From Cliona cf. orientalis (Eukaryota > Porifera > Demospongiae > Clionaida > Clionaidae): a stretch of 64,000 nt of DNA. Where the stretch lies: NCBI GenBank assembly GCA_963930775.1, contig OZ005692.1:9219029-9283028 (forward strand). Direction: 5' to 3'. Under the pieces are notes generated by a model. The model did no database searches, had not been told where the DNA came from, and saw only the letters and a list, made by a program, of their open reading frames with translations. Below, in pieces: positions 591 through 61,594 of the stretch. Each line of letters starts with the position of its first letter. Positions within the stretch are counted from its first letter, which is position 1. Position numbers and translations under genes: made by a program.

Positions 591-633
591 TTGGTTGATT
601 TTGGTAGAGTATATTCCCAAGTATTTTTATAAA

Positions 634-1238: not shown

Positions 1239-1418
1239 GATTTTTCCACTGCGATGTTCTTCTTGCTTGCAGGAGTTGTTGCGCAGTTAAAGTGTGCTTT
1301 ATTTAGAATAATTGTATACTAGTGTGACGTATGCGCATGCGCCATACGTCATGGGCAAACGTGCTCCTTACGTCGGCCTGATGCTATTAACTATAGTTTA
1401 TGCATGCATAAACATCAT
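1239..1418. mobile_element. 180-bp dispersed repeat, copy 1
   Basis: A nearly identical 180-bp block is found at 5666-5845. It contains two palindrome-like stretches, one around tgacgtatgcgcatgcgcc and one around tttatgcatgcataaa at its right end. Length, dispersal and terminal palindromes suggest a short non-autonomous transposon (SINE or MITE). The exact class cannot be decided from two copies. Confidence 0.6.
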
Positions 1419-1907: not shown

Positions 1908-2089
1908 AAATTACCCCCAAATTAGTGCCCGGTAGATACCAGATATTGTCCATGTGATATTGCCTTGCCTGCTAGGTGCAATGGGGTAGGTGATGCTGAC
2001 ATGTATGCCAGATATGCTGCATTTTAATCACCTGACATGGGCAAGTCTGTGAGGCAAGACCACAGCCTATGGCTATTGTGGTAATGATT

Positions 2090-6187: not shown

Positions 6188-7903
6188 CTAATAATCATAC
6201 AATTTATACCAACGAAGTATGCATAATAAGTTAATCTTTGAAATGAGCCATGAACCAATAAGAAAAAATGTGTAGATCATTGGAATAGCTGATGATATTA
6301 CTCCAATTGCAATTAAAGTGGTATAATAGGCATCGTATTTTTCATACATAGAAGATACTCTTTCCAAAATGGCTATGTGGGTAAAGCATAATAAGAATGT
6401 GAAGATTATATCAACAAGGGGGTAATGTGGGCCAATCGTTTTTAGTGGCTGAATATTAATCATTGCTATCAACAGAATCAGTACGATGATCAAGCTATAG
6501 ATGAAGTACAGAGTAGATAATGTTAAGCCGTAAATGGTGAAGAATAATGGCCACATTAGCAGCATAGGTACCGAGAACCACCTGCAGTCGTGTGTTCCAG
6601 GCTCTGTTCCATCCTTGTAACAGCCTTGAAAGGAGTCAACAAAGGCATGGAGAAAGTGCCAGTTGATGGGAAAGAGAGAGAGAAACTTTTGAAAGAACTG
6701 ACAAGGGTATAAAGTGAAGATTATTGTAGGGACACTCACAAACAGTGTAACCAAGATTATTGCTAGGATAGCATAAGGAAGATGCTTTTCACCAAAATAA
6801 GGAACAGTAGGTGAATAGTAAACTCCAAACTTAGATTTGTCAGAAGAAAGCTTAAAAATTTGAGTTGGGATCAAAAGATCAGCTGTTACATTTAAAATTT
6901 TTATGTAGGACAATAAAAAGAATGTAGCAAAGGAATCAAGTACTGAAGTACGAATGTCCCAATATCTTCGAAACGTGGCAAGAACCTTATTGAATGGCTT
7001 CCATATAGCTACTATTACTGGAACTCGCCTATCATAAAGCACAATAAAAACGTATGAAATCAGTATTAATACAAAAGGATAGAAAGCAAGTAGATATTCC
7101 AGGCTTAAGGCTTGAAGGGTGGTTACATTAAGGCAGATACTTGGAAGGATGGAACGAAAAATATCAAGATTCCACATGCTATAGAAGGCAAACATTACTT
7201 TTGCAGCTATTAAATATTTCATGTCTCCACTAAAGACCAGTAGGACTACTCGAACAAAGGCTGGTGTAGATACAAATTGACTGTACCAAACCACACCATG
7301 GAGGCGAGAAGATGTCACATTAATGTTAAAGGTAACTATGAATAGATAGAATACTGTGAGTGGTACAAATCCAACAAGGATGAATTTCCACCAGTTTTTA
7401 TGTCCATCTGGACACTCCACACAACTGAGGCTGTACGAGAGCACTAGTGGACTATACCCCTCTTCACAGTCACCACACAGTAGACCAGTTCGATGAAAAG
7501 GTGAGCATACTGAATCAGATGCATTGATAAGTGATTCTGGATTTTTTGGTAGTTCTTTAACAAATACTTCAAATGATGAACTACTCATGTGGCAGTTATA
7601 GAAGCAAAGCCCAGCATAGGTAGATTTGCTCTCATTGTCATAAGTCACACAATTACAGCTCTCAACTGCAGAAATTTGAGCTTCATTATTGCATATAATT
7701 CCCATTGTGTGTCCCCTATCACATTGACACCTTTTCTTGGCATTGCATATGAACCATGTGGGACAAGTACTGTCATTTCTGCAGTGATTGTCAATACCTG
7801 AAAAACTCACTGAACAGATGCTATCAGGGTTGGTACTTTCTAGTTCAGTTGATAATATAAATAGTAGCATTGAAATCAATGCTGCTTTTAACAAGGAGGA
7901 CAT
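6188..7903 (-). CDS. Short-form multi-pass membrane protein (Cys-rich ectodomain, about 8-9 TM)
   Basis: Single-exon gene of 571 residues from the ATG at 7903; an upstream in-frame TTG extends the open frame but is unlikely to start it. Residues 1-23 form a signal peptide. Residues about 30-165 are Cys-rich, with CPTWF.C, a C.CVTYD box and HRTGLLCGDC just before the first membrane helix (about 170-192). After it comes FNINV...LHGVVWYSQ, then hydrophobic spans to the end. Near residues 420-435 lies the family signature GCYKDGT followed by CRWF. The tail after the last span is very short. Function is unknown; a surface receptor or channel-like protein is possible. It lies tail-first to a repeat-rich gene-poor region and is followed upstream by the broken long-form gene. 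Confidence 0.88.
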   Translation of the reverse strand: MSSLLKAALISMLLFILSTELESTNPDSICSVSFSGIDNHCRNDSTCPTWFICNAKKRCQCDRGHTMGIICNNEAQISAVESCNCVTYDNESKSTYAGLCFYNCHMSSSSFEVFVKELPKNPESLINASDSVCSPFHRTGLLCGDCEEGYSPLVLSYSLSCVECPDGHKNWWKFILVGFVPLTVFYLFIVTFNINVTSSRLHGVVWYSQFVSTPAFVRVVLLVFSGDMKYLIAAKVMFAFYSMWNLDIFRSILPSICLNVTTLQALSLEYLLAFYPFVLILISYVFIVLYDRRVPVIVAIWKPFNKVLATFRRYWDIRTSVLDSFATFFLLSYIKILNVTADLLIPTQIFKLSSDKSKFGVYYSPTVPYFGEKHLPYAILAIILVTLFVSVPTIIFTLYPCQFFQKFLSLFPINWHFLHAFVDSFQGCYKDGTEPGTHDCRWFSVPMLLMWPLFFTIYGLTLSTLYFIYSLIIVLILLIAMINIQPLKTIGPHYPLVDIIFTFLLCFTHIAILERVSSMYEKYDAYYTTLIAIGVISSAIPMIYTFFLIGSWLISKINLLCILRWYKLYDY

Positions 7904-8387
7904 AATCAATAGACACACTAGTACTGGAGCTAGCAATCAAATTAATTTTCAGCCTTCTGTCTGTTAAACTTATAGTTTCTGAATCTTGTTCAGTTTGTAA
8001 ATGCAGAGTGTATAAAGCTGTTGCCAATTATATTGCATGAGCAAATTTTTTGGCATTGCAGCTAAGCATGTTACTATGAAAACTGGTTCGATGTTTTTGC
8101 TAGCTATAGGTGCTTTTCCCATATGAGTGCACATGTAATAGTGGCTGTTTACAAATGCCTCTCAATAATAAAATTGTTGCAGCATTCACATTGTATCTTA
8201 AGTCACAATTGCCAAAACTACTGAATCCAGTTGATTTTGTTGTTACCGATGATCGTATCATATTATTATTCTCTAGTGGTTAACTGTGGTAATAAAGAGC
8301 ACTTGACAATTTATAATTTGCGAATTTATTAAAACTTAGTATGTAGTACTACGTGCATACACAGTAATATCCAACTACATTGCTTCT
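7904..8387. other. Intergenic: 5' flank of one family gene, 3' flank of the next
   Basis: The left part is the upstream region of the short gene (a weak minus-strand TATA-like word near 8010-8016). The right part, from about 8095, is the 3' flank of the broken long form and is the sequence duplicated at 1-545. No gene is visible. Confidence 0.6.
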
Positions 8388-11300
8388 CTAGTCTAGTAGC
8401 AGGGGTTCACGTAAGCTGTCTCTCCCCTCCCACTCAGTTGTAGATAATGGAGGAGTATTTTCAGATGTATCATGTTCTTCCCCATATTCATTTGTGCACG
8501 CTTCTCTGGAATCTGATAGTCCAACTTCAGTAAATGTAGGTCCAACTTGGGAGGGTATTGTCTGCATCATCAAATCTGTTTCTTGATGGCGTATCAGTAG
8601 ACGGGTTTTGCCGAACTTGCTTATTTTCTGTATAATCGATGTTTTTAATTGATTGATGCGGGAAATTTCGAGCAAAGTAATAACAATGTGATAAATGAGT
8701 ACACCAATGAGTAAAATGAATGAAGCACCCACAGAAATTTCTGCGGAAATTCTCTGTCCTTTTGTATTATTTTGCCAATAAAGTTGAGCAACGCTAAGCA
8801 TGCATTAGGAGATTAAAGTAACAGAAGGAATTAAGACAGCCAACAAATTTTTTTCCTATAAACCTTGCCACCTACTGCTATCGTTAGAAGAAGTAGACTA
8901 GCTGCTACCAATGCTGCAGCCAAAAGGCTAAATTTAGAATCACTGTAATTATAGGCTATTTCTAAATAAAGCACAACTCGAATAAGTAACAATAGGCCAA
9001 TCCAGTACCGATGTTTAGGTCTATAAGCAGCAAAGTTCACCTCCATGAATGAATTAAATCTTGAGTTACGAATCCATCTTAGTAGTCTATAATTTGATGC
9101 TGGAAGCAGGCACTGCCATAAAAACAAGAAAATTGTGTACGAAAGGCCTACAATGACAACCAATACAGCTACTAAGAAAAGTGGGATGTGCTTTCCTTGA
9201 AAATACATTATGTTGGCATCAGGAAGCCAGTGCAATTTTCGTGATCCATTGGGATAGTGGATGGTAGCAAACGAGAGGATATCAATGATATTGCGAAGGA
9301 ACTTCATATAGGAGACTAACATGATAGTTGCAAGGGTTGCGACTGGATTTCGTTTGCCTATCAATTGAGCAAATCTGGATGAGCATCTGCTAATGCCGAT
9401 TATCGCCAGTAGCACCATAATTAAGTAAATGGGGAATGCAAATTGCAGCCACACTTTAGAGTATGTATCCAGTCCTTTGACGAAGCATGTATCTATTCCT
9501 AATTCTAGATTAAACCAAGCTATGAACACTGAGAATAGAGTATTTGATACAGAACCACTGCTGCGATAGATGATATTATTTGAAGCTACAATGTTTATGT
9601 AGAACACAAATCCATTCAGTGTGCCAACTGCTATGGTCATATTTAATACCAAGATTATTACTACAAATGCAATACCAGAGAGGCCTCCCCCAATAGTGAT
9701 GGCAATAAATCTTTTTGGCCAGTCTGCTGTACAATTTAAACACCGTGAACTTCCGACGGACAGGCTAAGTGGAGGTTTACAGGTACTACATAGTAACCCA
9801 GTGCGATGAAATTCACATTGTGCATCAGCTCCATGAAGAATGTTTAGATTTATGCTCACATTTTGTGTTGATGGAACACAATAATCATAAGGACAGTTGT
9901 GATAAATAATGTAAGGGTTATCTGCTGTGGTATTACGCAAGTAATCAATCCAGAATTTGCCTTGTCGTAATAGTGATTTAGTGGCTTCGTTGCATTTTGT
10001 AATGTACTTTTTGATGTGTCTATCACAGTCACATAGACAGCCACCGCTTTGGATATTCATTTCTTGAAAACCTGCTGGACAAGTGCATTTTTTGAAGATT
10101 ATATTTAGACTTCTTTTTGACATTGTAGTGCCATTACAGGGACCAATAGCATACAGATAGAGTGTCACTTGGTTATGATACGAGGAATAGACATTCAAGC
10201 TCAAATCGCTACATTTATTGGATATTTTTTGTATGTATTGTCCTTCTCTGAGGTAAGCGCCACTCGAGTGGGGATAATCAGTTTGAACGGTTGCGTTCAC
10301 TTGATGCTCGACTTGGTCAACTGCAGTAACACTTACATAGAACACTCTTCCTTTCTCAGTCTCAACTATATGATTATTGTAATAACAGTCCATCTTTCCT
10401 TTTGGACAGTAGCACAGTCTCACTGGATCGGATGCTATGAGTCTCTCAACGGTGTTATCATTCGTTACTCGCTTGAAGTAGTTGATACCTTTAGTCAAGA
10501 CTTTTGCCCTGTCAAAATCTGTGTAGTCACTCTTTGCGATGCACCTATCTAGCAGTCCTCCGTAGAGGGCACTATTACTGTTTGCACTGGTTATTATGAC
10601 CTGAAAAGAGTCACTTTTATTTCTAAACTGTGGTGTTTGTATAAAGCATGTTGAGTATCTCGCATCATTACAGGTGTCATAATCATTCACAAAAATTGCT
10701 GTTCCTTTCTGTGCAGTGTTATTGATAAATTCTATTGAGTATGTATAGAATGCTTTTAATGGGCCACGTACTTTGGCATTTGCTTCTAAGCTGATCCCTC
10801 CACCAGAATCTGTAGCATTATTGTCCACAAATGATAAGTATCTTGACAGATTATTCGTCCTCTGATGAAGATTGTACCATTCATATCCAATGGATATTAT
10901 TGAATCAACTGCGTGAATTGCTCCACCTTTTATTGATGCTGTGTTGCCAATGAAGGTACAATTTGACAGACAAATGAAGTAGCTGTGATCCAGATGCACT
11001 GCACCACCCTTTTCTGCTGTGTTTTCTGTGAATACTGCATTACTCTGTGCATATAATCTACTCTCTATTGCATTAATAGCGCCTCCATCCTTCCAAGATT
11101 TATTTCTGAAAAACTTAGTTATGTTGCAAAAGTAAATAGCACTCCAAATACTAATTATAGCTCCTCCCTGTTTGTAAAATGAGCTATTTCTTGGCTGTAA
11201 TTGCTCATTGTCAAAAAATTTACTTGATCCATTGAATAGTACTCTGCTCTCTTCAATAAAGATAGCACCGGTATTGTTAGAAAAGATTAGGCTGTCCTTG

Positions 11301-11919
11301 AATTCGACATTACTTTTACGAATGTCTGCAGCACTTAAAATGGCTCTATTTCCTGTGAATATTACCGTATGATGTACTTTCAGATCACTTTCAACACTCC
11401 CCACTCTACAGAATTATCTATTATTTCCAGTGTTTGGAATATTTCCACTTCACTGTACCAGAGAGATAATACTCCAGTTTTTACCACTGTATTGCTAAGA
11501 AAAGTGCAATTTTCAATGGTAAGTTTGACATACCTACATAGAAGCATACTTATACGTTGGAGCGTATTATGCTTAAATGTAGTCCCAGCAATTTTGAGTA
11601 CACCATTTGACTTTGACCGGAGTATTCTACCTCTGACTGCTGAGTTACTGATCAATTCACATTGATTCAGCTCAATATCGCTGTTGAGTAGTTGTATCAA
11701 ATGTGTTTTTGCTGTTACTGTATTGTTTCGAAAGGTACATTTCTGGAATATTCCTCTGCTTGATTTGATGTCTAATATTGTTTTTGAGTTTAATTCAAAG
11801 CTACAGTTAGTAACAGACATACTGGAATTATGCCGTGCGGTGATCACTTCTGCCTGTGACAATTTAAAAATGCTATGCATTATTTCTACTTGAAACACGT
11901 TCTCTTTTATTTCATCCAA
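8388..11919 (-). pseudogene. Long-form family gene, central and C-terminal part, frameshifted
   Basis: Three overlapping minus-strand frames (11919-11380, 11404-8831, 8801-8388) together match the intact 1297-residue gene at 15471-19364. They encode beta-helix-like repeats (GGAI, NNTA), a YGGLLDRC block, a Cys-rich stretch with FHRTGLLCSTC, the NGFVFYINIV motif, RYWIGLLLL.R and a tail ending REPLLLD. Frame breaks: one missing base near the C-run 11399-11402, one extra base in the 7-T run 8848-8854 (immediate stop at 8831), and a 4-bp duplication in gcatgcat at 8798-8805. The stop at 8831 would remove the last one or two membrane spans and the tail. Its N-terminal exon-equivalent lies at 14245-14769 beyond an insertion. 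Assembly errors could explain the homopolymer shift but not the insertion. Confidence 0.8.
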
Positions 11920-14296
11920 TTCTCTTTTGCAAGATTTGGGCTAAAATTAGCCATTTTCACAGCAAATTTTAATAAAAGTAGTAAAAATCATCCATTTCTT
12001 TAGCATGGATGCTGGACAAATGATGTAAAGTGATAGTAATTCAACAAATTGTCAAAATAAGAATGATTCTTCTCAATTCTTTCAGCAATACTACAATCTA
12101 AGAGAATACAAAGAATACCTTAAATTTTTAGGATAGCACCTAAAGAATCAACAAATATTTCTCAAAAAGGAAACACAGTTAAAAACATCCATTAGTTTTT
12201 ACACTCCGTGTCCTCCCTTGAGCATCACTGCTTGAAATATCAGACAGTGAGTAGAATTTAAGTGCCAAGGCACTGAAGACAGCTCAGAATTACAGTCTCG
12301 ACACTACATAGTTGTCGATATTAAGTGTAGGTGTCCTACAGAAGAGAGAATATTGACAGTAAGGTAACCATGGCTGTCAAAGATGTACAGATGACAACAA
12401 TTTTTTGTCCAAATGAAAGCGAAATTATTAGAAGTCCTAAATATGAGGCAGCTAGATGCCAAAAATGTAGGTACTACAGTAAAATCCATCTATGAGTGCT
12501 AGTTACTACCTAAATTTAGGCACTACTACAATACTATATGGCCCAATAATCACATTTTGGAGCATGCTATAGGGGTAGATACCTAAATTTAGGTACCACG
12601 ATAAGATCTGGCACCTGTGGTGGCTAGCCACTACCTAAATTTAGGTACTGCTGCAATACTGTGGCCCGATACTTACATTTTGGAGGAGCAATCCATGCTA
12701 TAAGGGTAGAATTATGTCAGATATGTCATGCATTTGTGTGGTAAATTATTCAGCCCCACACACTGATGCTTTAGAGACCGTTTCTAATTAAAGCACACTA
12801 AGTAGAAAACAATATCTAACTCAAAACTGTTAGGATGAATCTGTTCATTCTCTATTGCCGCCCTCTACTCCACTCCATTTCTCAGCCCACTTTTAAGGGG
12901 TTCTACTATCCCGGGCCACACAGACCCATCATAGTTGTACCAGCTAACTTAGCTATAAAATGATTTTAGCTAGCTCCTGGATAATGAAGCACTAAAAACG
13001 TAAAGGCTTACCAAACAGTAGGTGCAGATAATCATCCTTTTGAATCCTCTCTTTCTGCCGTCTACCGGAGATACCACCATCGCGCTGTGACACTGAAGGT
13101 AGTCCTCGAACCCAGGCTCACTGTGAAAAAGGCAGCTGCTTTCAAGATCGCGCTTTTGTAATATGAACTTTGACCCCCGAATTTTGCAGCTGTCATCGAC
13201 TCGAGTTCAACATGGCTCCTGATAATTGCTAGCAGTAGGTAAGTGTACGTTTATTGTGTTCTGTATATGATTATTTAAGTACAGTGGGTTACCAAACCTG
13301 CATGAACTTGAACTAAATTCGCTCAGCTTCAACTATAACGGTTAATTTAGCACAGCCATGAGTCTGGCTGTTCATAGGGTTGGGGATTAGCATGCTTGGC
13401 AGGCCTCGAGCTTGAAATAGCTACTAGACTAGGCTATAGTGTTCAATCAGGCTAGGCCTGACACTTAGCTAGTTGAGTCAGAATGACAATATCTGTGCAT
13501 GGCTCAAAGTATAATATTTAATATATTAATGTGGATAGGCTGGCTAGCTAGCAAAGAAGGCTTGATGATATAGCTATAGCTATAGGATAATTCAGCATAG
13601 AGGCACAAGGGCAATGTCCCCCCTCCTCCCCCTCTGGTGAGCCACACATGCTATATATCAGGGCCATAAGAGAAGTGCAAAATCTAAAGTTATCAATCAT
13701 ATAACCATAGTATACAAACCCAACTTTAATACTCAAATAACTGAGCAGTTACAAGTTCCATTACCACGTGTCAACAAGCATTGGACGACCGTTAATTAAG
13801 GGGTGTGGCCAACAGTTAGGAGGCATGGTCACAAAATTAAAAGTGCCGTGTGGTACACATAGTATATTACAACTATATTAGAGGCAATTACTATACCCCA
13901 GTAACTTTTAACGTCTATGTAACCCACAGCATGTCTTGTCCAGTAGAATACCTAAATTTAGGTAACCCACAGCAGTATCGAGTACCTAAATTTAGCGTTT
14001 ATGCTATGTGTGACTGTTTTTCTCTTTGATATCCAGCAGATCAACCAAGATGCTTTCAAATCAAAGACTTTATTCTGTTATCTTTAGAAGACACTGTGAT
14101 TTAAAGTGAAACTGACTGGAGTTTACAGCATCTCCTTTTTGCTGCTAGCAATTTAACTAATTTCATGTGATCATTTTTGTTAAAAAATTTTTATTGTCAA
14201 AATTGCTGGATCTCTTAGCATGCCTGCTAAAGAAATAGATCAAATTATTTGTAATCCTGCAAAAGAGAATTGGATGAAATAAAAGAGAATGTGTTT
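11893..14296. mobile_element. 2.4-kb insertion with 44-bp inverted ends splitting a long-form gene
   Basis: The segment 11893-11936 is the reverse complement of 14253-14296 with 2 mismatches in 44. Weaker inverted similarity continues inward, for example ttctttagcat near 11997-12007 against gctaaagaaat near 14226-14236. The block sits exactly between the N-terminal (14245-14769) and remaining (8388-11919) parts of one long-form gene. No transposase ORF is visible. A foldback-type or non-autonomous DNA transposon fits. A local inverted duplication of host sequence is the alternative, because the right-hand inverted end is also translated as part of the family ORF. No clear target-site duplication was found. 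Confidence 0.55.
12507..12720. repeat. 125-bp-spaced repeats with TACCTAAATTTAGGTA palindromes
   Basis: A unit beginning ctacctaaatttagg and continuing through cacattttgg / gcatgctat / ggggtaga is present twice, 125 bp apart, and a third palindrome lies at 12580-12595. More copies of the same palindrome are at 13949-13964 and 13983-13995. They all lie within the 2.4-kb insertion. Confidence 0.6.
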
Positions 14297-14769
14297 TGAC
14301 TGTTTTTTGCAATGATCACTTTTCCCCTTGAGTTGGTAAAAACACAACCATTGATACTAACACTACTTTGAAAGAGATTTATGAATCCGCTGAAGTCCCC
14401 ACAGCCTATAAATTTAGTATTGCTCACGGTAAGTATCTTCACATTGTTAACAATAAATCCTACAAATGGAGTGCAATTGATGCTCGCTGTAGTTTCTGAA
14501 ATAATTGAGAACATGTCGACATTTTCCAACTTGATTGATCCTGACGAAACACCATGTGTTCCCGAATTTAACCTCAATATGGTTTGATTTCTGATGTGCT
14601 GAGATATGTTGCCTACAAACTGTTCAAATGTGAGGCATGGCTCGTCTTGTACACAGGAACTATTTTCCGAAGATTTGATTGTGTAGCTCAGTGGATCACA
14701 TATTGTGATGCAGAGCAAATGAAACAAAACTACTACTGTTGCTGATGGAAATATACTTCGACGATCCAT
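14245..14769 (-). pseudogene. N-terminal part of the split long-form family gene
   Basis: 174 codons from the ATG at 14769. The product has a signal peptide (residues 1-24), then an N-terminal block with SCVQDEPCLTFEQF that matches NCFSRQSCLTLEEF of the intact long gene, then early beta-helix repeats (INCT, INGCVFTNS). The frame stops at 14245, just inside the inverted end of the insertion. Added to the 11919-8388 part, the total is close to the 1297 residues of the intact relative, so both pieces are read as one disrupted gene. Alone it could still give a small secreted protein. Confidence 0.72.
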
Positions 14770-15470: not shown

Positions 15471-18400
15471 TCACAGTAGTGGCTCAATGAGGCTATCTGG
15501 AGTGAACGCATCCTGCTCTATAGTACGTACTACAGCTTCATACGTCTTCTCACTTCCTTTCTCTGTCATTTCATCCTTTCCATGATGACTCATATCCATG
15601 GCTGACATTGATACCTCAGTTGAAATGCATCTATTGAATGTTTGAGTATTCAATTCTAGACTTTGACCATGACTTGTAGCTGTTTTATGTCTCTTCATCG
15701 TTTGTATTACAAGTGTGCACATATTTTGGCACCGCTTGATATTTTTTAAGGCAGAATATGTATGATATGTTATCACACACAGTGATAAAATGAAAATCAC
15801 TCCAATTGATGTATAAGTTGCAGTTTTGTGAACAATCTGATTATCAAGGGAGTAGAACGTCACTAATGTGAGTAACAGAAGGTTTAAGTAGCAGACATTC
15901 TCAAGGCAGTCTATGATCCTTTTTTTGTAAATATTGTCGCCCAAGTAGACTTTGAACATGATTAAGCACGCAATAAGTACTCCGGTAGCAAGAAGATTAT
16001 ACTGACGATCACCAGATACATTTGCTGTTATTGCTACACTGAGTGCTATACGTATGAGCAGGAGCAAGCCAGTCCAGTAGCGATATTTCGGCTTGAAGGG
16101 AGCATGGTACGCTTCAATGAAGGAATTTAGCTTTGTACTTTTTAGCCATCGGAATATTACAATATTTGGTAGTCGATGAAGCCATTGCCATGTAAAGAGA
16201 AGGATGGTATAGGCAAGACCTATAATGATAAGGATAATAGCTGAGAGAAACAGTGGAATATGCTTTCCTTGAAAATATTTTACACTTGCGTCTGGAAGCC
16301 AGACAGTTTTATGTGTTTCATCTGGATACTTGATTATCGTGAATGATAAAATGTCGAGGATGCTTCGAAGGAAATAAGCATATGAAAGTAGAATTAATGT
16401 TGCTAATGTAGCCACAGGATTTCTTCTACCAAGAAGGCGTGCACATCTTAGCGAATATTTGCTTATGAGTATGATGACAAGTACCAGGCTTATCATATAC
16501 AGTGGGAAGACATAGCTAAACCATGTTCTGCCGTATGCATTCATACCTTCCCAAAAGCATCTCTTCATTCCCATTTGAGTATTTAATAAGTATATGACTG
16601 CGGTAAAGAAATTGAGCTGATCTGTACTGGACGGTAGAAATATACTTTTGTTGATAAGCACAATGTTTGCATAGAATATAACCCCATTTGGTGTTCCCAG
16701 GGCCACAGTAACATTGAGGAATAGAAGGAGGAAAACTAGCATTATTCCAAACACTATTCCCGTTAGAATATTTCCAATCACTAATCCAGGCCAGTACTTA
16801 GGACACGGAATACAGTGTGAGCCACTCATAGAAAGTGAATAGCCTTGCTTACACTGCCCGCAAAGCAACCCTGTTCGGTTGAAGTTACACTGAGCATCAG
16901 CTGCACCAGTTTGATTTAGATCCATTACCCCCACTGTAGGGTGTGCTGGAAGGCAATAATCGTAAGGACAATTAGGGTGGATTATGTATCCATCGAAAAT
17001 GTAAGTTATCCAGCAATTTTTAATTCTTACAACAGAGTGTGTATTGAATGCGGTGATATAACCTTTTAACTGTGGATCAAGGTTGCATTCACACCTATTC
17101 GATTCATTGGACGATAAAAACCCTATAGCACACTCACAGCGTTTGAAAGTTATAGTGACTCTGAAAGTAGAAATACCTTTATCTTTGCATGGTCCCTGGT
17201 CAGCGTATAAGGTGAGATTGACAGATTCACAGGGCGATGAAACATTGAATGTTAAATTTGTACATTCACCTTCTGTGTGTTGTAGCTGTTGTCCTTCACC
17301 AAGAAAACTCTTCTCATGTAATACGCTGCGTATGGTAGCATTAACTATTGTTCTGTTAACTTGATCCATTACCACGATGGGTATATTAAATTTTTCTCCT
17401 TTTTGCACAAAGATCCTTTTATAATTTTGACAGCTAAAGTACCCAGAATCTTGACAACTGCACACTCGCATTGCGTCGGACTGAATATCATTCAGTTCTA
17501 CCGTTCCTCTGCTCTCATTCTTAAAATACTCCAGTCCACTAATATTAAATTTTTTGTTAGTACTTGCAACATGTATATCAGCCATTGGACTCAGTGAGCA
17601 TCTGTCTAGAAGTCCTCCATACAATACTTTACCTCTATCAGCAGTGTTGTTTTTGAAAGTGATAAAACGTTCCTTTTGTTGTGATTTATGGATGTCGATG
17701 TCATTGTAAATGATTTGAAAGAAGCACTCTGTACGAGTGCGGTGAACAAAGGAAGACTTGCTTTTACAGGTTGTGAAGTAGGTTTCATCTCGGATAAAGA
17801 TTGCACCGCCATCTGTTCTTGCAATGTTACCATCAAAAATTATGCTGTAATTGTTAATTCTGTCAACGATGCATTTAATATATGAATTTAGCTCAAAGAA
17901 GAGAGCTCCACCTCTCTCAGCTTCATTAGCGACAAAACTCAACCTCAAGATTGTAGTGTTATAGTTATCATTTTGAGTATCATTTGATAATGCAATTACT
18001 GAACTGACTGCATGAATACCTCCCCCACTTTTATTGGCTATATTTCCTGTGAAAATGCAGTTTCCATGACAAATGAAAGTAGAGAGATATAGAAATGCTC
18101 CACCGCCACTTTTTTCTGCAATATTGTTGGCTATCAATGAATAATAGTATATTGTGATTTTACTTTCACTGGAATAAATAGCACTCCCTGAGTATGTCGA
18201 ATTATTGTCAATAAAAGTTACATTTTTCCAAAATACAATCGTACTTTGTATTGTAGTAAGAGCACCTTTTGCTTTCACTTGACCAATTTTTGATACTGTA
18301 TGTGACTGTGAGCATTTTTCAAACATTGTGAGACTATAGAATTGTACATTGCTGTTAATGATGAGTAATGATCCAAAATTGTTTGAGTACGTCATTCTAC

Positions 18401-19364
18401 CTGTGATATTCGTACCGGTTTTCAATAAATAGATTACGCTGAAATTCCCGTGATTTCCTGATACTAGCGTATTGTTTAAGAGAACTTTGCTCTTTACAAT
18501 GCAAAGAATACAATCTGCTCCAAAATTGTTATTGAAAATGCTATTATTGATTTGTACATTGCATTGTCTAACATAGACTATTTTTTCTCCTTTATTTTTG
18601 ATTATGTTACTATCTTCAATGAGAAGTTTACCATTTGAAATCTGGATGAGAGTTGAAGGCTGATCATGCCATGCTGTACCTGTTGTGCTATTGCTAATTG
18701 AAGTGCTTTTGAGATGAATGGTACTTTTAGATTCTGCTAGCAGAATAGTAGTTCCATTGATGGTTAACTCACTTGCTTCTATTTTCACAATACTTGCATG
18801 AGAAAGAAGTGCAGGTTGTACAGAATCATATCTGTTTCTTGTGTTGATGATGTAAAATGAACTATTTCTGAATAGTACCGTAGTTCTCTTAAGCTCAAGC
18901 AATGAGGAAGATCCATTACCACCAAGAGAAAATGTACAATTGTTAATAATTAGATTCTTCAACTCCATAACAGTATTATTTTTACATTCCAGAAATTCAA
19001 TTCCATTTATCTGACTCCTTCTGATGTTGAGTAGACTTAGCTGGCCAAAACTGTTGCATATGATTCTTGTCTCTTCTGTATCTGAAGTTGCATTCAACAA
19101 TAAATATTCCAAATTTTTGAACGATAATTCTGATGAGAGACTGTGATTTCCTGGGGCAAGAGTCAACTCGATCGATTTAGCTGAAGCGTTTTTTAAAGCA
19201 TGCGTTGCAAATTCCTCGAGAGTTAAGCAAGACTGTCTACTGAAGCAGTTATTAATAGATGGCCAAATACTGTATATTTGTGTCATACAGAGTGAAGAAT
19301 TTATCCAAGCCAACACCATGATAAGCACTTGCATGTAGGTTGCAACTTTAAGCATCCTTTTCAT
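15471..19364 (-). CDS. Long-form membrane protein: pmp-like beta-helix ectodomain plus multi-TM core
   Basis: Intact single-exon gene of 1297 residues with ATG at 19364. Residues 1-27 are a signal peptide. Residues about 40-600 are a run of short imperfect repeats rich in N, S and T (NNCTF, GSAIYSSES, SGGGAFL, SGGGIHA, RGGALFF, DGGAIFI), which suggest a right-handed beta-helix with many N-glycosylation sequons. A Cys-rich segment follows (PYDYC, then FNRTGLLCGQC at about 826). The membrane core runs from about 858 to 1215, with LNVTVALGTPNGVIFYANIV, then RYWTGLLLLIR near 1095. The cytosolic tail (about 75 residues) ends IEPLL. Names such as 'outer membrane protein pmp' given by automatic pipelines reflect only the repeats. 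Role unknown; likely cell-surface. Confidence 0.9.
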   Translation of the reverse strand: MKRMLKVATYMQVLIMVLAWINSSLCMTQIYSIWPSINNCFSRQSCLTLEEFATHALKNASAKSIELTLAPGNHSLSSELSFKNLEYLLLNATSDTEETRIICNSFGQLSLLNIRRSQINGIEFLECKNNTVMELKNLIINNCTFSLGGNGSSSLLELKRTTVLFRNSSFYIINTRNRYDSVQPALLSHASIVKIEASELTINGTTILLAESKSTIHLKSTSISNSTTGTAWHDQPSTLIQISNGKLLIEDSNIIKNKGEKIVYVRQCNVQINNSIFNNNFGADCILCIVKSKVLLNNTLVSGNHGNFSVIYLLKTGTNITGRMTYSNNFGSLLIINSNVQFYSLTMFEKCSQSHTVSKIGQVKAKGALTTIQSTIVFWKNVTFIDNNSTYSGSAIYSSESKITIYYYSLIANNIAEKSGGGAFLYLSTFICHGNCIFTGNIANKSGGGIHAVSSVIALSNDTQNDNYNTTILRLSFVANEAERGGALFFELNSYIKCIVDRINNYSIIFDGNIARTDGGAIFIRDETYFTTCKSKSSFVHRTRTECFFQIIYNDIDIHKSQQKERFITFKNNTADRGKVLYGGLLDRCSLSPMADIHVASTNKKFNISGLEYFKNESRGTVELNDIQSDAMRVCSCQDSGYFSCQNYKRIFVQKGEKFNIPIVVMDQVNRTIVNATIRSVLHEKSFLGEGQQLQHTEGECTNLTFNVSSPCESVNLTLYADQGPCKDKGISTFRVTITFKRCECAIGFLSSNESNRCECNLDPQLKGYITAFNTHSVVRIKNCWITYIFDGYIIHPNCPYDYCLPAHPTVGVMDLNQTGAADAQCNFNRTGLLCGQCKQGYSLSMSGSHCIPCPKYWPGLVIGNILTGIVFGIMLVFLLLFLNVTVALGTPNGVIFYANIVLINKSIFLPSSTDQLNFFTAVIYLLNTQMGMKRCFWEGMNAYGRTWFSYVFPLYMISLVLVIILISKYSLRCARLLGRRNPVATLATLILLSYAYFLRSILDILSFTIIKYPDETHKTVWLPDASVKYFQGKHIPLFLSAIILIIIGLAYTILLFTWQWLHRLPNIVIFRWLKSTKLNSFIEAYHAPFKPKYRYWTGLLLLIRIALSVAITANVSGDRQYNLLATGVLIACLIMFKVYLGDNIYKKRIIDCLENVCYLNLLLLTLVTFYSLDNQIVHKTATYTSIGVIFILSLCVITYHTYSALKNIKRCQNMCTLVIQTMKRHKTATSHGQSLELNTQTFNRCISTEVSMSAMDMSHHGKDEMTEKGSEKTYEAVVRTIEQDAFTPDSLIEPLL

Positions 19365-20204: not shown

Positions 20205-21908
20205 TTATATGATCCACTTCCTTCTTGAAAGCAGCCACGTGCCAATAAGAAAGCAGGCGTAAATAACTGGAATAAATCCCACTATGAGTGAAACGATTAT
20301 CCATATCCTGTAGAAATATCGGTACATTTCGGAATCACAGTGGTCTCTTCCTAGGATAGCAATGGAGATGAGACTAAATAGAAAGAGGAATATCAGATCA
20401 GTAGGTGGATAGTTGGAAGGTGTCTTCTTATATGGCTGAATGTTAATTAGTAGAATCATAAGTAATGTGAATATAACAGTGGCATATACAAAGTACATGC
20501 TAGATAGTGTTAAGCCAAATATGAGGAAATGCAGTGGCTTTATGATTAGTAATATCACTGAGAACCATCGGCAGTCAAATGTTCCAGGCTCTGTTCCGTC
20601 CTTGTAACAGCCTTGAAAGGAATCAACAAAGGCATGGAGAAAGTGCCAGTTGATGGGAAAAAGAGAAAGAAATTTTTGGAAGAACTGACAAGGGTAGAGA
20701 ATAAAGACGATCGTTGGAATAATCACGAAGATTGTCAACATCAATATGGCGAAAATGGCATATGGGAGATGGTAGTCCCCAAAGTAAGAGACGCTGGGCG
20801 AGTAATACAGTGCAAGCTGTCTCTCATTTGAACCAAGTTTTTGAATTTGAGTTGGAATCAGAATATCACATGTGATGCTCAAGATTTTCACACAAGAGAG
20901 CAAGAAGAAAGTAGAAAATGAGTCGATAATTGATGTGCGAATATCCCAAGACCTTTGAACCTTGGCCTGTAAGATTTTAAATGGCTTCCATGCGTACACT
21001 AGGAGCGAACACTCCCTATCGTAAAGTACCAACATGAGATAGGAAGATATTATAAGAACAAAGGGGTAAAGAGCAATAAGATATTCGAGTGCTAAGGCCT
21101 GAAGAGTAGTCACATTTAAACAAATATTGGGAAGGACTGAACGGAAAAAATCAAGATTCCAATAGCTGTACAAAACTGCAAAAATCTTTCCTATTACCAA
21201 CTGATTCCCATGGACTTCTAGGTTGAGAAAAACCATGCGGACAAAGGCGGGCATGGTTACCATTTGACTGATCCATACAAAACCATGAAGACGAGAAGAC
21301 GTCACATTTATGTTAAACAGGACTACGAATAAATAGAATAGCGATATAGGAGTGAAACCTGCCACAATGAACTTCCACCAATTTCTTTGAGCATCAGGAC
21401 ATTGCACACAACTGAGGTTGTATGAGAGCACCAGTGGACTGTACCCCTCTTCACAGTCACCACACAGTAGGCCTCTTCTATGAAAGTGTGTGCATGCTGA
21501 ATCATTAATCAATTTCTCGGGATTTTGTGGAAGAAGATCATAAACTGTACGCTCATCGCCTCCTGTATTAATGGCATTGAAACTCTCATAATGATAAAAG
21601 CATGGTCCAGCATAGGTTGAGCCACTTTCTTCATCATATGTCACACAGTAGCAGACTAAAAGTGCAGAGAAAAAGTTTTCATTATCGCACATTATTCCAT
21701 CATTGTCACTGTTTTTGCACTCGCATCTATCATCCGAGTTACATGTGAACCATGTGGGACATGTGCTATCATTGTTACAGTGATTATGCTTATTTTCCGA
21801 TAGTCGACTAGCTACACTTGTGTTTTGATATGATACAGTCCACTCATCACTTGCTGTCACTAGTCCTGGTAACATTAAAAGTAGAGAAATTACTGATAAG
21901 CCCTTCAT
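20205..21908 (-). CDS. Short-form multi-pass membrane protein
   Basis: Intact single-exon gene of 567 residues with ATG at 21908. It has a signal peptide (1-19, ending VTAS), a Cys-rich ectodomain with CPTWFTCN, YCVTYDEESGSTYAGPC and HRRGLLCGDCEEGYSP, then the first membrane span at about 175-196. FNINVTSSRLHGFVW follows it. GCYKDGT lies near 432 and FDCRWFS just after. The protein ends SRRKWII a few residues after the last span, so it has almost no cytosolic tail. It differs from the 22.5-29.9 kb group more than those differ from each other, so it is an older branch of the same sub-family. Confidence 0.88.
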   Translation of the reverse strand: MKGLSVISLLLMLPGLVTASDEWTVSYQNTSVASRLSENKHNHCNNDSTCPTWFTCNSDDRCECKNSDNDGIMCDNENFFSALLVCYCVTYDEESGSTYAGPCFYHYESFNAINTGGDERTVYDLLPQNPEKLINDSACTHFHRRGLLCGDCEEGYSPLVLSYNLSCVQCPDAQRNWWKFIVAGFTPISLFYLFVVLFNINVTSSRLHGFVWISQMVTMPAFVRMVFLNLEVHGNQLVIGKIFAVLYSYWNLDFFRSVLPNICLNVTTLQALALEYLIALYPFVLIISSYLMLVLYDRECSLLVYAWKPFKILQAKVQRSWDIRTSIIDSFSTFFLLSCVKILSITCDILIPTQIQKLGSNERQLALYYSPSVSYFGDYHLPYAIFAILMLTIFVIIPTIVFILYPCQFFQKFLSLFPINWHFLHAFVDSFQGCYKDGTEPGTFDCRWFSVILLIIKPLHFLIFGLTLSSMYFVYATVIFTLLMILLINIQPYKKTPSNYPPTDLIFLFLFSLISIAILGRDHCDSEMYRYFYRIWIIVSLIVGFIPVIYACFLIGTWLLSRRKWII

Positions 21909-25221: not shown

Positions 25222-26916
25222 TTATTTGCATATGATCCACTTTCTTCTTGAGAACAACCATGAGCCAATGAGATAGCTAGTGTAAGCAAGTGGAATAAAT
25301 CCCATACCGAGTGAGGCAGCTATCCATAGTGTATGATAGTACTGATAAATATATAAGCTTGAGCTCTCTCTTCCTATGATCGCAATATAGGTGAGACTGA
25401 GTTGAAAATAGAACATCAGATCAGTGGGAGGATATTTTGAAAGCATCTCCTTTTTATAGGGCTCAATGTTGATGAATATAACTATTAGAATAAGGATGAC
25501 TACGAGAGCATATATGAAGCACATAGAAGATAATATTAGGCCAAAAACGGTAAAGAATATTGGCTTGGTGATCAGTGTTATCACTGAGAACCACCTGCAG
25601 TCATGTGTTCCAGGCTCTGTTCCATCCTTGTAACAGCCTTGAAAAGAGTCAACAAAGGCATGGAGAAAGTGCCAGTTGATGGGAAAGAGAGAGAGAAACT
25701 TTTGGAAAAACTGACATGGATAAAGAATGAAGATAATGGTGGGAATAGCCACAAAAACTGTTAAAACAGTTAGTGCTAAAATAGCATATGGACGATGTTC
25801 ATCTCCAAAGTATGGTACACTGGGCGAATAGTAGAGCGCAAGTTTTCTTGTGTTGGAATTTAGTTGCTGAATTTGTGTCGGAATCAAAAGATCGCAAGTC
25901 ACACTCAAAATTTTCACATACGATAACAAGAAAAACGTAGAAAAAGAATCAATGACTGATGTACGGACATCCCAAGACTGTCGAAGTTTAACCTGCAAGT
26001 CTTGAAACGGTTTCCATGCATATGATAGAAGTGAAGTTTTTCTGTGATTGTAAAGTGTTATCATGAGATATGAAATAGATATGAGTACAAAAGGATAAAG
26101 AGCAACGAGATATTCCAGGGCTAGGGCCTGAAGTGTAGTTATATTCAAACAAATATTCAGTGGAATAGAATGGAAGAAATCAAGATTCCAATAGCTGTAA
26201 AACATCGCAAAGAATCTTCCAAGATTTAGGTTTCCATAGATTTGTAGAGTAAAGAAAACTATTCGGACAAACGGAGGCATGCTCAGTACTTGGCTAGCCC
26301 ATACAACGCCATGAAGACGAGATGATGTCACATTTATGTTGAATAAAACTATGAAAATGTAAAACAGCGTTAGAGGAAGGAATCCAGTCAAGACGAACTT
26401 CCACCAATTTTCTTGACCATTTTCACAAGGAACACAGCTGAGATTGTATGAGAGTACTAGTGGACTATGCCCTTCCTCACAATCACCACACAGTAGACCT
26501 CTTCTATGAAAGCGCTTGCATGCAGAATCATTGATCAAGTTTTCAGGATTCCTTGGAAGATAGTGGTAAACATAACGTACATCATTTTTTATTGTAGCAT
26601 TGCAGTTATAGAAGCATTGTCCAGTGTAGGTTGAGCCAGTATCATTGTCGTAAGTTACACAGTAGCAAACCAAGAGAGCGGAGACATGCTTTTCATTATC
26701 GCATTTTATTCCATCATCTTTACTGTTTTCACACTGGCAATTATTTTCTGAGTTACAAGTGAACCAAGTCGGACACTTACTTTTGTTGCTGCAGTTATTA
26801 TTCTCAATACCTGAGAGAAGATTGACATTGCCAGGTTTTTTGTGCATCCATGATTGGCCGCCTACTGCCACTGACAGCATTAAGAGTAACACAAAATATA
26901 AGCTATTCATGCCCAT
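25222..26916 (-). CDS. Short-form multi-pass membrane protein
   Basis: Intact gene of 564 residues if it starts at the ATG at 26916 (MGMNSLYF, a good signal peptide). The frame is open for another 95 codons to 27201, but that stretch has no signal peptide in front and is not conserved in frame in the sister copies, so it is treated as 5' UTR. The ectodomain has CPTWFTCNSENNCQC, CYCVTYDNDTGSTYTGQC and HRRGLLCGDC. The first span is at about 172-194. FNINVTSSRLHGVVWASQ follows, and GCYKDGT is near 428. It ends SRRKWIICK. It is the intact sister of the frameshifted copy at 22538-24219. Confidence 0.9.
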   Translation of the reverse strand: MGMNSLYFVLLLMLSVAVGGQSWMHKKPGNVNLLSGIENNNCSNKSKCPTWFTCNSENNCQCENSKDDGIKCDNEKHVSALLVCYCVTYDNDTGSTYTGQCFYNCNATIKNDVRYVYHYLPRNPENLINDSACKRFHRRGLLCGDCEEGHSPLVLSYNLSCVPCENGQENWWKFVLTGFLPLTLFYIFIVLFNINVTSSRLHGVVWASQVLSMPPFVRIVFFTLQIYGNLNLGRFFAMFYSYWNLDFFHSIPLNICLNITTLQALALEYLVALYPFVLISISYLMITLYNHRKTSLLSYAWKPFQDLQVKLRQSWDVRTSVIDSFSTFFLLSYVKILSVTCDLLIPTQIQQLNSNTRKLALYYSPSVPYFGDEHRPYAILALTVLTVFVAIPTIIFILYPCQFFQKFLSLFPINWHFLHAFVDSFQGCYKDGTEPGTHDCRWFSVITLITKPIFFTVFGLILSSMCFIYALVVILILIVIFINIEPYKKEMLSKYPPTDLMFYFQLSLTYIAIIGRESSSLYIYQYYHTLWIAASLGMGFIPLAYTSYLIGSWLFSRRKWIICK

Positions 26917-28154
26917 CTTCTTCAAATTTTTCACTTCTAATATGAATCTAAGTAACCAAAAAATTACATCGAACTGGCAATGCGAGTGGCACAAATTTTT
27001 CATACATGTATGTGTAGGAATAATTATTATACTATGTTGATCATCGGTATTATAGATCTGCTGTTTGTGCGTGGTTTTAGTTTGGAACTTGTCATCAGCT
27101 GTCAAATAAACTTCGAGTCGCATATTGAATGATATTACTATCCTTGATGTTTTCTTTATGATGTCAGACGACAGATAATGATTGTATTGTCTCTCGTACA
27201 TTATTATTATATTATATTGTAGTCAGTTTTTGGACATTTGTATTGCAGTTAAGCAATATATATATATACAATTACTTTTGTACATTCCCAATATCTGAGA
27301 GATGATTGACATTGCCAGATCTTTTGTACATCCATGATTGGCCCTCTGCTGCCACTGACAGCATTAAGAGTAACACAAAGTATAAGCTATTCATTCTTTA
27401 AATTTTTCACTTCTAAAGGATCTACTTGGCTAAGTTTAGCAAGAATTTTTATAAGGTTCTTATTTATATTATAGAATTTATAGAAAATTTGAAGCCAAAT
27501 TAACTAGTATATTCTTTAATCGAAGCCTTAAAGATTAAGGGAAGCTATACCACTTTCAGTAGGTATTCACACAAAAGAAATTTGAAACTACAGCAAATAA
27601 CTGGCAATATGACTAGCACAATTTTTATACATGTGTATAAATATTATTATGCATGCTATGTTGATCATCGGTATTATAGATCTGCTGTTTGTGTGTGGTT
27701 AATTTTGATTTTATCATCAGCTGTCAAATAAATCTTGAGTCAAATATTGATATTATTACACTAAGTTAAAGCATGCTTTTGTATACATTGGATAGCTAGC
27801 TGGATTCTTATCATGCCTGTACCTATAGTATGGTTTTCGATGTAATCGTGCTGTATGCATGACACAATGACATGCAAAAGAATGAAAGTTTATTTATTGG
27901 TGGCTTCCATATGTTGTTTATGTTGAAGGATAGACATGGAATTTGGAAAAATTTTTATTGTATTATTATCTGACAGTATTCTGTGTACATTATGCAACTA
28001 TCAAAACTTATGCTAGTGATACAGATACATTATTATGTGGTCCACACTTTCAAAATGTTGATTGTATGTGTAGACATGGAGGGCTCATAAACTCTAGAGT
28101 AATACAAATTATTGTTAAAAAAGATAAATTTTCGAAATTATAGTGCAACGGTTG
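26917..28154. other. Intergenic between two short-form copies
   Basis: This holds the 5' flank of the left copy (26917-27260), a truncated gene start (27285-27405), then diverged 5'-flank sequence (about 27560-27770) and a diverged 3' flank (27780-28154) matching the region around 24800-25220. This order is what a deleted intermediate gene copy would leave. Confidence 0.6.
27285..27405 (-). pseudogene. Stub of a short-form gene: signal peptide and first codons only
   Basis: On the minus strand from about 27395 the sequence encodes MNSLYFVLLLMLSVA then GQSWM, matching the starts of the neighbouring genes. It breaks off after some 35 codons into unrelated TA-rich DNA. The rest of the gene is absent. 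Its own decayed 5' flank lies to the right. Confidence 0.75.
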
Positions 28155-29858
28155 TTACTTGCATATGATCCACTTTCTTCTTGAGAACAACCATGAGCCA
28201 ATGAGATAGCAAGTGTAAGCAAGTGGAATAAATCCCACGCTGAGTGAGGCAGCTATCCATAGTGTATGATAGTGCTGATAAAAATATAAGCTTGAGCTTT
28301 CTCTTCCTATGATCGCAATATAAGTGAGACTGAGCTGAAAGTAGAACATCAGATCAGTGGGAGGATATTTTGAAAGCATCTCCTTTTTATAGGGCTCGAT
28401 GTTGATGAGTATAACTATTAGAACAAGGAAGATTATGAGAGCGTATATAAAGTACATAGCAGATAAGGTTAAGCTAAAAATGATAAAGAGCAATGGTTTT
28501 ATCATTAGCAGTATCATTGAGAACCACCTGCAGTCGTGTGTTCCAGGCTCTGTTCCGTCCTTGTAACAGCCTTGAAAGGAATCAATTAAGGCATGGAGAA
28601 AGTGCCAGTTGATGGGAAAGAGCGAGAGAAACTTTTGGAAAATTTTACATGGATAAAGAATGAAGATAATGGTAGGAATAGCCACAAAAACTGTTAAAAG
28701 AGTTAGTGCTAAAATAGCATATGGACGATGTTCATCTCCAAAGTATGGTACACTGGGCGAATAGTAGAGCGCAGTTTTTCTTGTGTTGGAATTGAGTTGC
28801 TGAATTTGAGTCGGAGTCAAAAGATCGCAAGTCACACTCAAAATTTTCACATATGATAACCCAAAAAACGTAGAAAAAGAATCAATGACTGATGTACGGA
28901 CATCCCAAGACTGTCGCAGTTTAATCTGCAAGTCTTGAAACGGTTTCCATGCATATGATAGAAGTGAAGTTTTTCTGTGATTGTAAAGTGTTATCATGAG
29001 ATATGAAATAGATATGAGTACAAAAGGATAAAGAGCAACGAGATATTCCAGCGCTAACGCCTGGAGAGTAGATATATTCAAACAAATATTCAGTGGAATA
29101 GAATGGAAGAAATCAAGATTCCAATAGCTGTAAAATATCGCAAAGAATCTTCCAAGATTTAAGTTTCCACGGATTTGTAGAGCAAAGAAAACTGTTCGGA
29201 CAAATGTAGGCATGCTCAATACTTGGCTAGCCCACACAACACCATGAAGACGAGATGATGTCACATTTATGTTGAATAAAACTATGAAAATGTAAAACAG
29301 CGTTAGAGGAACGAATCCAGTCAAGATGAACTTCCACCAATTATCTTGACCATTTTCACAAGGAACACAGCTGAGATTGTATGAGAGTACCAGTGGACTG
29401 TGCCCTTCCTCACAATCTCCACACAGTAGACCTCTTCTATGAAAGTGCTTGCATGCAGAATCATTGATTAACCTTTCGGGGTCCCTTGGAAGATAGTGGT
29501 AAATATAGCGCACGTCATTTTTTATTGTAGCATTGAAGTGCTCGCAATTATAGAAGCATTGTCCAGTGTAGGTTGAGCCAGTATCATTATCGTAAGTTAC
29601 ACAGTAGCAAACCAAGAGAGCGGAGACATGCTTTTCATTATCGCATTTTATTCCATCGTCATTACTGTTTTCACACTGGCAATTATTTTCTGAGTTACAA
29701 GTGAACCAAGTCGGACACTTACTTTTGTTGCTACAGTTAGCATTCCCAACATCTGGAAGATGATTGACATTGCCAGATTTTTTGTGCATCCATGATTGGC
29801 CGCCTACTGCCACTGACAGCAATAAAAGCAACACAAAATATAAGCTATTCATGCCCAT
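28155..29858 (-). CDS. Short-form multi-pass membrane protein
   Basis: Intact gene of 567 residues from ATG 29858 (MGMNSLYF); the open frame extends upstream to 29936 without support. Signal peptide, CPTWFTCNSENNCQC, CEHFNATIKN (two more Cys-side residues than the sister), HRRGLLCGDC and the first span near 173-195 follow. GCYKDGT and HDCRWFS come late in the core. It is about as long as the 25222 gene and shares most of its sequence, but differs in the ectodomain and in the third-last spans (LLMIKPLLFIIFSLTLSAMYF). It is the closest family gene to the first dynein exon and is transcribed away from it. Confidence 0.9.
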   Translation of the reverse strand: MGMNSLYFVLLLLLSVAVGGQSWMHKKSGNVNHLPDVGNANCSNKSKCPTWFTCNSENNCQCENSNDDGIKCDNEKHVSALLVCYCVTYDNDTGSTYTGQCFYNCEHFNATIKNDVRYIYHYLPRDPERLINDSACKHFHRRGLLCGDCEEGHSPLVLSYNLSCVPCENGQDNWWKFILTGFVPLTLFYIFIVLFNINVTSSRLHGVVWASQVLSMPTFVRTVFFALQIRGNLNLGRFFAIFYSYWNLDFFHSIPLNICLNISTLQALALEYLVALYPFVLISISYLMITLYNHRKTSLLSYAWKPFQDLQIKLRQSWDVRTSVIDSFSTFFGLSYVKILSVTCDLLTPTQIQQLNSNTRKTALYYSPSVPYFGDEHRPYAILALTLLTVFVAIPTIIFILYPCKIFQKFLSLFPINWHFLHALIDSFQGCYKDGTEPGTHDCRWFSMILLMIKPLLFIIFSLTLSAMYFIYALIIFLVLIVILINIEPYKKEMLSKYPPTDLMFYFQLSLTYIAIIGRESSSLYFYQHYHTLWIAASLSVGFIPLAYTCYLIGSWLFSRRKWIICK

Positions 29859-30478
29859 CTTCTTCAAACTTTTCACTTCTAATATGAATCTAAGTAACCA
29901 AAAAACTACATCGAACTGGCAATGTGAGTGGCACAAATTTTTCCTACATGTATGTGTAGGGATATTATACTATGTTGTTCATCGGTACTATAGATCTGCT
30001 TTTTGTGTGTGGTTTTAGTTTTGATTTTGTCATCAGCTGTCAAATAAACTTCGAGTCGCATAGTGAATGATATTACTATCCTTGATGTTTTCTGTATGAT
30101 GTCAGACGACAGATAATGATTGTATTGTCTCTCGTGCATTATTATATTATATTGTAGTCAATTTTTGGACATTTGTATTGCAGTTAAGCAATACAATTAC
30201 TTTAGCAACTTTCAATTTTAGGAAGTACAAGTGACTTTATCCAGGTATAGCAGTGTCTGCCCATACAGGTTGTAACAGCAACCTTGTAATTTTTTGTATG
30301 GGCTTTTTGTAAGGGAGGTGGTAGGGTGCACAAGGCACAAACAGCAAGGGTGGGCATGATCCAAGTCTATTATCTTATTCGTACAATTTTGATATTTCCT
30401 ACCATGAAATTAAATTTTGGCTTATTGCCATTCATATTATGGTGACTGAATATGGTATGCACACTGCAACCCCTGCAG
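29859..30478. other. 5' flank of a short-form gene, then DNA leading to the first visible dynein exon
   Basis: 29859-30190 matches the upstream regions of the sister copies. From there to the acceptor at 30477-30478 no gene is visible, and no earlier dynein exon was found. Confidence 0.55.
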
Positions 30479-53235
<22,757 letters not shown>

Positions 53236-53645: not shown

Positions 53646-53698
53646 CGGTGGATAATCAGCTATTGATTCAGAAGTATCCAACGTTAGTAGAAATCGCA

Positions 53699-60800: not shown

Positions 60801-61134
60801 TGGCAAGACTAGCCCAGTGGCGATCTATCTATCAACCAGTATAGCTTTCGCTCTGTTGGTCTTTATCATCTTTTATCATATTTATCAACGATTGGTGCTC
60901 ACTAAACTCGGTTCAAAGTTGACAGTAAAAGTGATGCGAATGATTCCTTTTAAGATAAATTCCAATGACACCGATGATACAGTTGAACTGCCTGATATGA
61001 TCCCATCAGCATCAGGAGCTGGCTGCAGTAAAGTCACTTCCACGATGGTTGATCTAGATCAACCTTCCTCTCACGTGTATGAGTCATATAATTCACAGGA
61101 CTTGAAGGAGCCTCTTTTAGAAGATGACAAATAG
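57819..61134 (+). pseudogene. Long-form membrane protein, array copy 2, damaged at the 5' end
   Basis: The ATG (57819) and the first signal-peptide codons remain, but about 36 bp that genes 1 and 3 carry after 'tctattctg' are missing, shifting the frame. The correct frame resumes at 57889 (MNPTSFPC) and meets TGA at 58069-58071, where gene 3 has AGA. Beyond the stop the frame is open to 61134 (973 codons from the TTG at 58213). It keeps GGIVADATQT, GGAIYVDDS, FNREGILCGGC, NGLTFYANII, HRYWTGLLLVARL and KEPLLEDDK. About 90 residues of the repeat domain present in gene 1 (between SHLTL and TFETNN) are missing in frame. Without a signal peptide it should not reach the membrane normally. Confidence 0.82.
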
Positions 61135-61528: not shown

Positions 61529-61594
61529 CGGTGGATAATCAACCATTGATTCATGAGTGTTTTAAGTTGAATTTGCAATGTTAAAGAAGTCGCA

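Follow-up and report, generated by a model that had tools for sequence, protein, structure and literature searches.

A sponge gene family encoding a predicted multi-span membrane core with an optional β-helix ectodomain

Architecture of LA1 and the core common to long and short genes

We analyzed a 64,000-nucleotide window from the sponge Cliona cf. orientalis, located on chromosome 4 (C4:9219029-9283028; the genome searched spans 216.8 Mb), centering on LA1, a member of a family of long and short genes that encode predicted multi-span membrane proteins. Long members combine a signal peptide, a pmp-like β-helix, a probable β-sandwich, a Cys-rich box and a membrane core; short members consist of the Cys-rich box and the membrane core only. 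LA1 is laid out as follows.

15471..19364, minus strand: LA1, whole long gene in a single frame, 1297 residues (open reading frame list and translation)
19287..19364, minus strand: hydrophobic N terminus, probable signal peptide, residues 1-26, edge approximate (inferred from sequence)
17475..19286, minus strand: right-handed β-helix with pmp-like coils, residues ~27-630 (PF02415, TIGR01376)
17130..17465, minus strand: strand-rich domain, possibly an immunoglobulin- or macroglobulin-like β-sandwich, residues ~634-745
16800..17120, minus strand: Cys-rich module with GLLCGQC...C..C, residues ~749-855, common to long and short forms (hhalign)
15765..16763, minus strand: membrane core with nine proposed spans, residues ~868-1200 (hydropathy, loop charges, sequons, alignment)
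15474..15764, minus strand: tail, proposed to be cytosolic, with IEPLL at its end

A Pfam scan placed Chlam_PMP (PF02415) on three stretches of LA1 (E = 1.7e-7), and the POMP_repeat model TIGR01376 also matched (E = 1.1e-7); Beta_helix (PF13229) stayed below its threshold (17.3 versus 25.9 bits). Among other long forms, PF02415 matched LA2 (1.1e-10) and L053, from elsewhere in the genome (1.4e-15), and fell under the cut-off in LB1 (0.14) and L055 (0.047). The ectodomains are rich in sequons, with 32 in LA1 against 14.0 in shuffled sequences (z 5.6) and 23 against 11.7 in LB1 (z 3.9).

The original prediction had described an LC.xC box, a first-span motif and a late motif shared by long and short genes. 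All three can be read in the translation of LA1, as GLLCGQC from residue 832, LNVTVALGTPNGVIFYANI at residues 883-901 and RYWTGLLL at residue 1095. The exact letters of the first-span motif do not hold throughout, since LA2 carries FYINI and SB3 and SB4 also differ, and the late motif, given earlier in two versions, is common to both kinds of gene, with both versions occupying one aligned region. The additional domain of the long forms, put at 500-700 residues, is indeed there but extends over ~720 residues in LA1 (27 to ~748), and it contains the strand-rich domain as well as the pmp-like β-helix.

The relationship between the two kinds of core was examined by profile comparison. Alignment of long against short cores with hhalign gave a probability of 99.5% (E = 2.5e-23) over 442 columns, from the Cys module through the last span, the common region starting ~80 residues ahead of the LC.xC box. 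A hidden Markov model (HMM) built on 29 distinct long cores recovered 9/9 distinct short proteins (11 rows, in which L050 and L051 duplicate SA5 and SA4) at 32 to 45 bits; the best of 231 decoys, which were reversed or shuffled within 10-residue blocks only and included no unrelated multi-span family, reached 3.0 bits. With BLASTP, LA1 and SA2 share 23% identity over 340 positions (E = 2e-9), and LB1 and SB1 taken alone align at only E = 0.029. As judged from these comparisons, the long and short cores are homologous and share both the Cys box and the core, so that the picture of a common core with an optional β-helix ectodomain stands; at the level of sequence, the cores neither proved unrelated nor fell into different known families. 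Shared hydrophobic composition was considered as the source of the likeness and rejected, as the decoys preserve local composition.

AlphaFold2 models were of low confidence, with a mean predicted local distance difference test score of 52.3 and a predicted template modeling score of 0.52 for SA2, and 47.2 and 0.33 for a long core. The order of helices is alike in both, the short sequences having been part of the alignment for the long model. The core matched no Pfam or NCBIfam family in the proteins scanned, in keeping with the earlier statement that the family has no assigned function.

Ectodomain history and selection

A tree built from 30 long and 8 short cores (38 in all), for which the tool warned of long branches, separates the two forms on one branch with a support of 100/100. 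The original prediction had the long genes inserting a domain into the shared plan. Against this, a locus on another contig, L054 (C16:6851000-6858000, minus strand 418-4359), carries a pmp-like β-helix ectodomain (PF02415, 2.6e-5) on a short-type core with the motif DSFQGCFKD..RFFAGLYFLYR. Against six short proteins this core reaches 70-110 bits, compared with no more than 52 bits against long ones, and in a 22-row tree (one long branch, midpoint root) it groups with the short forms as their outgroup (100/100). With L054 on the short side and the root placed between both main groups, a single ectodomain loss is simpler than two gains. Assuming that root, the short line more probably lost the ectodomain than the long line inserted it. 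Next to L054 lies another frame of its kind, shorter at 376 amino acids.

The rates of change differ along the protein. In five long pairs, all with full cores and three of them sharing genes, the nonsynonymous rate (dN) is 0.119-0.155 in the ectodomain versus 0.031-0.055 in the core (2.2 to 5.0 times), and the ratio of nonsynonymous to synonymous rates (dN/dS) is 0.44-0.82 versus 0.18-0.51; the core of the LB1-LB3 and LB2-LB3 pairs is too small (48 codons). Across ten full-core pairs, core dN/dS lies at 0.15-0.51. There is thus good support for purifying selection acting on the core of the tested pairs and for faster change of the ectodomain.

Tandem arrays of a 78-bp unit lie inside the ectodomain genes of L039 (1674-2552, 11.3 copies) and L042 (4436-5465, 13.4 copies); each unit corresponds to one coil of 26 residues, making the array a minisatellite in coil number. 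The scan covered these two loci and the window, and no tandem 78-bp DNA array was found in the window's own family genes.

Family members in the window and across the genome

Within 58 kb of the window we count 14 family genes or their remains, 10 of them whole open frames (LA1, LB1, SA1, SA2, SA4, SA5 and SB1-SB4) and 4 broken, cut or without a start. Starts were taken from the bacterial table of the open reading frame tool, and their exact positions are approximate. Besides LA1, the following features were recorded.

6188..7936, minus strand: SA1, short gene
8831..11919, minus strand: LA2, broken long gene, N-terminal part in a different frame and 3' end cut after ~TM7 (TM, transmembrane span)
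14245..14769, minus strand: N-terminal fragment of 174 amino acids, resembling the start of a long-type gene (likeness by eye)
20205..21908, minus strand: SA2, short gene, 567 amino acids
22538..24303, minus strand: SA3, short gene broken across two frames
25222..27201, minus strand: SA4, short gene
28155..29936, minus strand: SA5, short gene
32212..34101, plus strand: SB1, short gene
34626..36464, plus strand: SB2, short gene
36923..38737, plus strand: SB3, short gene
39762..41618, plus strand: SB4, short gene
53648..57331, plus strand: LB1, long gene, 1227 amino acids, with tail DLKEPLLEDDK
58072..61134, plus strand: LB2, long gene, start approximate (58072 or 58213), its match to LB1 starting at LB1 residue 215
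61586..64000, plus strand: LB3, long gene running past the window edge

The four sub-families proposed earlier are borne out within the window by the core tree, in which LA2 is unplaced; the genome holds further ones.

Genome-wide, a codon pattern for the long type, CP[FYL..]DYC just ahead of the Cys box, has 528 sites (3 for the reversed control), and one for the short type, F-[QLH]-G-x-YK[DN]GT, has 96 (control 0), the latter by design missing sub-families with other letters. The reversed patterns rule out noise as the origin of these counts. The figure of 528 takes in broken copies, and it omits some genes, as 18/21 scored long matches on contig C1 hold such a site. Three protein searches scored the best 66, 77 and 70 of 1902, 1518 and 1395 first-look candidates, the last two lists overlapping. 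Among these best-scoring matches, 64/66, 68/77 and 60/70 are free of internal stops and 2/66, 9/77 and 10/70 hold stops; since only the best were scored, the broken share is a lower bound. The open frame measures 1000-2000 amino acids in 53/66 long matches and is longer in one.

Family loci are scattered over many contigs and partly clustered. The report on this sponge's genome gives 25,502 annotated genes and 5.78 exons per transcript (PMC12639293); against that gene number, the long-type sites, broken ones included, amount to ~2%. The family is a large one, of hundreds of copies that are, by their predicted frames, mostly intron-less.

The receptor array also contains, on the plus strand, two segments of a gene for dynein heavy chain, at window positions 48355-48654 and 52300-52563 (DHC_N2, E = 3.8e-17; AAA_6, E = 3.1e-39). 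They are short frames separated by 4 kb, the pattern of an intron-bearing gene, which makes the single frames a feature of this family rather than of its surroundings. Close to them is a perfect (TC)83 microsatellite (52821-52986). Two related small frames on the minus strand (43768-44163 and 44601-44861), which end in WPTQ.YYY, had no Pfam match up to E 1; the first has its best Protein Data Bank (PDB) hits in designed repeat proteins (E = 2.4e-4), and we judged these hits chance-like.

Predicted topology and candidate roles

Hydropathy analysis of LA1 gives eight segments, to which the short stretch NGVIFYANIV was added by hand as the second span; full-length proteins have 7-9 segments, some counts including the signal peptide. 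Mean Lys/Arg numbers in the loops before TM4, TM6 and TM8 are 3.3, 7.1 and 2.5 in 29 long cores, where positive charge is also found in the tail, and 6.8, 5.0 and 2.1 in short forms. A sequon is present in the short loop before TM7 in 15/29 long forms, and short forms carry sequons before TM3 (6/8) and before TM5 (4/8). Together, loop charges and sequons suggest nine spans with the N terminus outside and the C terminus inside. The tail ends in an EPLL, ESLL, KPLL or EPLV type of sequence in LA1, LB1, LB2, L044-L046, L053 and L055, which otherwise belong to distant sub-families. The tails of L040, L042 and L047 finish in EKEAVSQV or EKEAVGQI, unlike those of other sub-families; the EKEAVSQV end of this group is of a kind that we take to be bound by PDZ domains.

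Several known systems resemble parts of this architecture. Chlamydial Pmp proteins (PF02415, TIGR01376) have the same FxxN and GG[AVI] repeats in β-helix coils and occur as many paralogues; the sponge coils, by contrast, sit on a multi-span membrane core with a signal peptide and a Cys-rich box. No autotransporter β-barrel was matched in the Pfam scans, the C-terminal half being a hydrophobic, predicted helical core, and the resemblance of the repeats could be due to convergence. The LC.xC Cys-rich box is matched by DUF7630 (PF24633), which scored over its cut-off in 32 places of the sponge genome and in 0/14 control genomes. It was above the cut-off of 27 bits in none of the whole proteins scanned (LA1 19.9, L053 22.6, L054 23.3 and L055 24.7 bits).

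Adhesion and class C G protein-coupled receptors likewise form expanded families with a big modular ectodomain, a Cys-rich part near the membrane and a multi-span core, from which the sponge core would differ in its ~nine proposed spans. Seventeen Pfam protein scans covering both long and short forms (maximum E 5 or 10), in which the HMMER filters discard most weak matches, gave no match to 7tm, GPS or GAIN. Fungal TRP-like/FLC proteins (PF06011) have a β-sandwich ectodomain ahead of ~nine spans, a likeness of layout that comes with no sequence match in the sponge proteins; PF06011 matched nowhere in the sponge genome, and the control genomes were likewise without a match, which makes this search uninformative. 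NLR families are expanded in sponges. An SRCR expansion in a sponge is described in PMC10855680. Like these, the present family is a lineage-specific mass expansion of candidate recognition proteins, built from other domains. Proteins similar to the present family, and unnamed, probably occur in other sponges. No account of such a family was found in the literature searched.

Taken as a whole, the best explanation in our assessment, at about even odds, is an expanded family of recognition or uptake receptors. Its structural part is very probably right, and the recognition-receptor role itself falls a little short of an even chance. The earlier label receptor-like is a tentative reading of the design, and we speculate that it would work as follows. 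The proteins would stand at the cell surface, where the β-helix would offer a recognition surface for microbes, particles, glycans or neighboring cells; the β-sandwich and Cys box would link binding with the membrane core, and the core would relay it as a signal, as ion flow or as uptake. Endocytosis could be directed by the EPLL-type ends on the tails of several sub-families. Short forms, which lack the ectodomain, may serve the long forms as partners or decoys, or may sense small ligands.

Several results weigh against this proposal or parts of it. No signaling, kinase, G-protein or channel domain was recognized in the proteins scanned. The stub of SA2 has no excess of sequons (3 versus 2.3), and across five short pairs the ratio of stub to core dN is 1.0 to 2.0, with dS above 1, near saturation, in three of the five. 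Whole-ectodomain dN/dS is below 1 and so gives no sign of positive selection, relaxed constraint would give the same pattern, and ectodomain dN can be inflated by misaligned repeats. In 12/66 long matches the open frame is shorter than 1000 amino acids, so some genes are broken or intron-bearing. As for the topology, sequons fall on the proposed cytosolic side at the end of TM1 (26/29 long and 6/8 short forms) and before TM6 (3/8 short forms), and the outside loop before TM5 has one in just 1/29 long forms. The EPLL-like tail is absent from L039-L043, L047, L048 and the eight short forms shown, and although it recalls dileucine sorting signals it misses the strict [DE]xxxL[LI].

We rank recognition or uptake receptor first among the roles, followed by channel or transporter and by adhesion or allorecognition. 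We consider it unlikely that the core forms an ion channel or a broadly TRP-like transporter, with the β-helix just anchoring or gating it in chemo- or mechanosensing. This would suit the general likeness to fungal TRP-like proteins (FLC/Pkd2) and the best PDB sequence match of a profile of all 12 cores, a K2P channel, though that match lies at chance level (E = 0.12); none of the 17 scans gave a Pfam TRP match, and structure matches are at noise level. Similarly improbable is a function in sponge cell-cell adhesion or self/non-self recognition in place of sensing outside matter. Polymorphic self markers could well take this form, a big and partly clustered family whose ectodomains diverge and include tandem coil units; however, animal allorecognition systems are known from single clusters, unlike the hundreds of loci spread here over many contigs, and the membrane core is elaborate for a simple anchor.

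Given that right-handed β-helices are common among polysaccharide-cleaving enzymes, the β-helix could instead be such an enzyme, tethered to the cell surface by the core. This is very unlikely, as the only β-helix matches above cut-off in the proteins scanned were to pmp coil repeats and no enzyme family appeared. Least credible, and extremely improbable, is a decaying, mobile-element-like expansion without a cellular role. The many copies and the stop-bearing share of best-scoring matches, whose true value is higher, fit such decay, but the low core dN/dS in the ten pairs and the mostly open frames show selection at the protein level.

Mass-expanded candidate recognition proteins are a known kind, and the membrane core of the present family may be the new part. 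Going further with the receptor reading, one could picture an undescribed class of nine-span receptors with a repertoire of ~600 genes, diversified by coil duplication and loss and by ectodomain loss, that would distinguish food, symbionts and self, a proposal we offer as rather doubtful; Symbiodiniaceae sequences are present in this sponge's sample according to PMC12639293. If the family does form a recognition repertoire, it would rank among the main candidates for the means by which a filter feeder lacking nerves and adaptive immunity tells food, partners and strangers apart.

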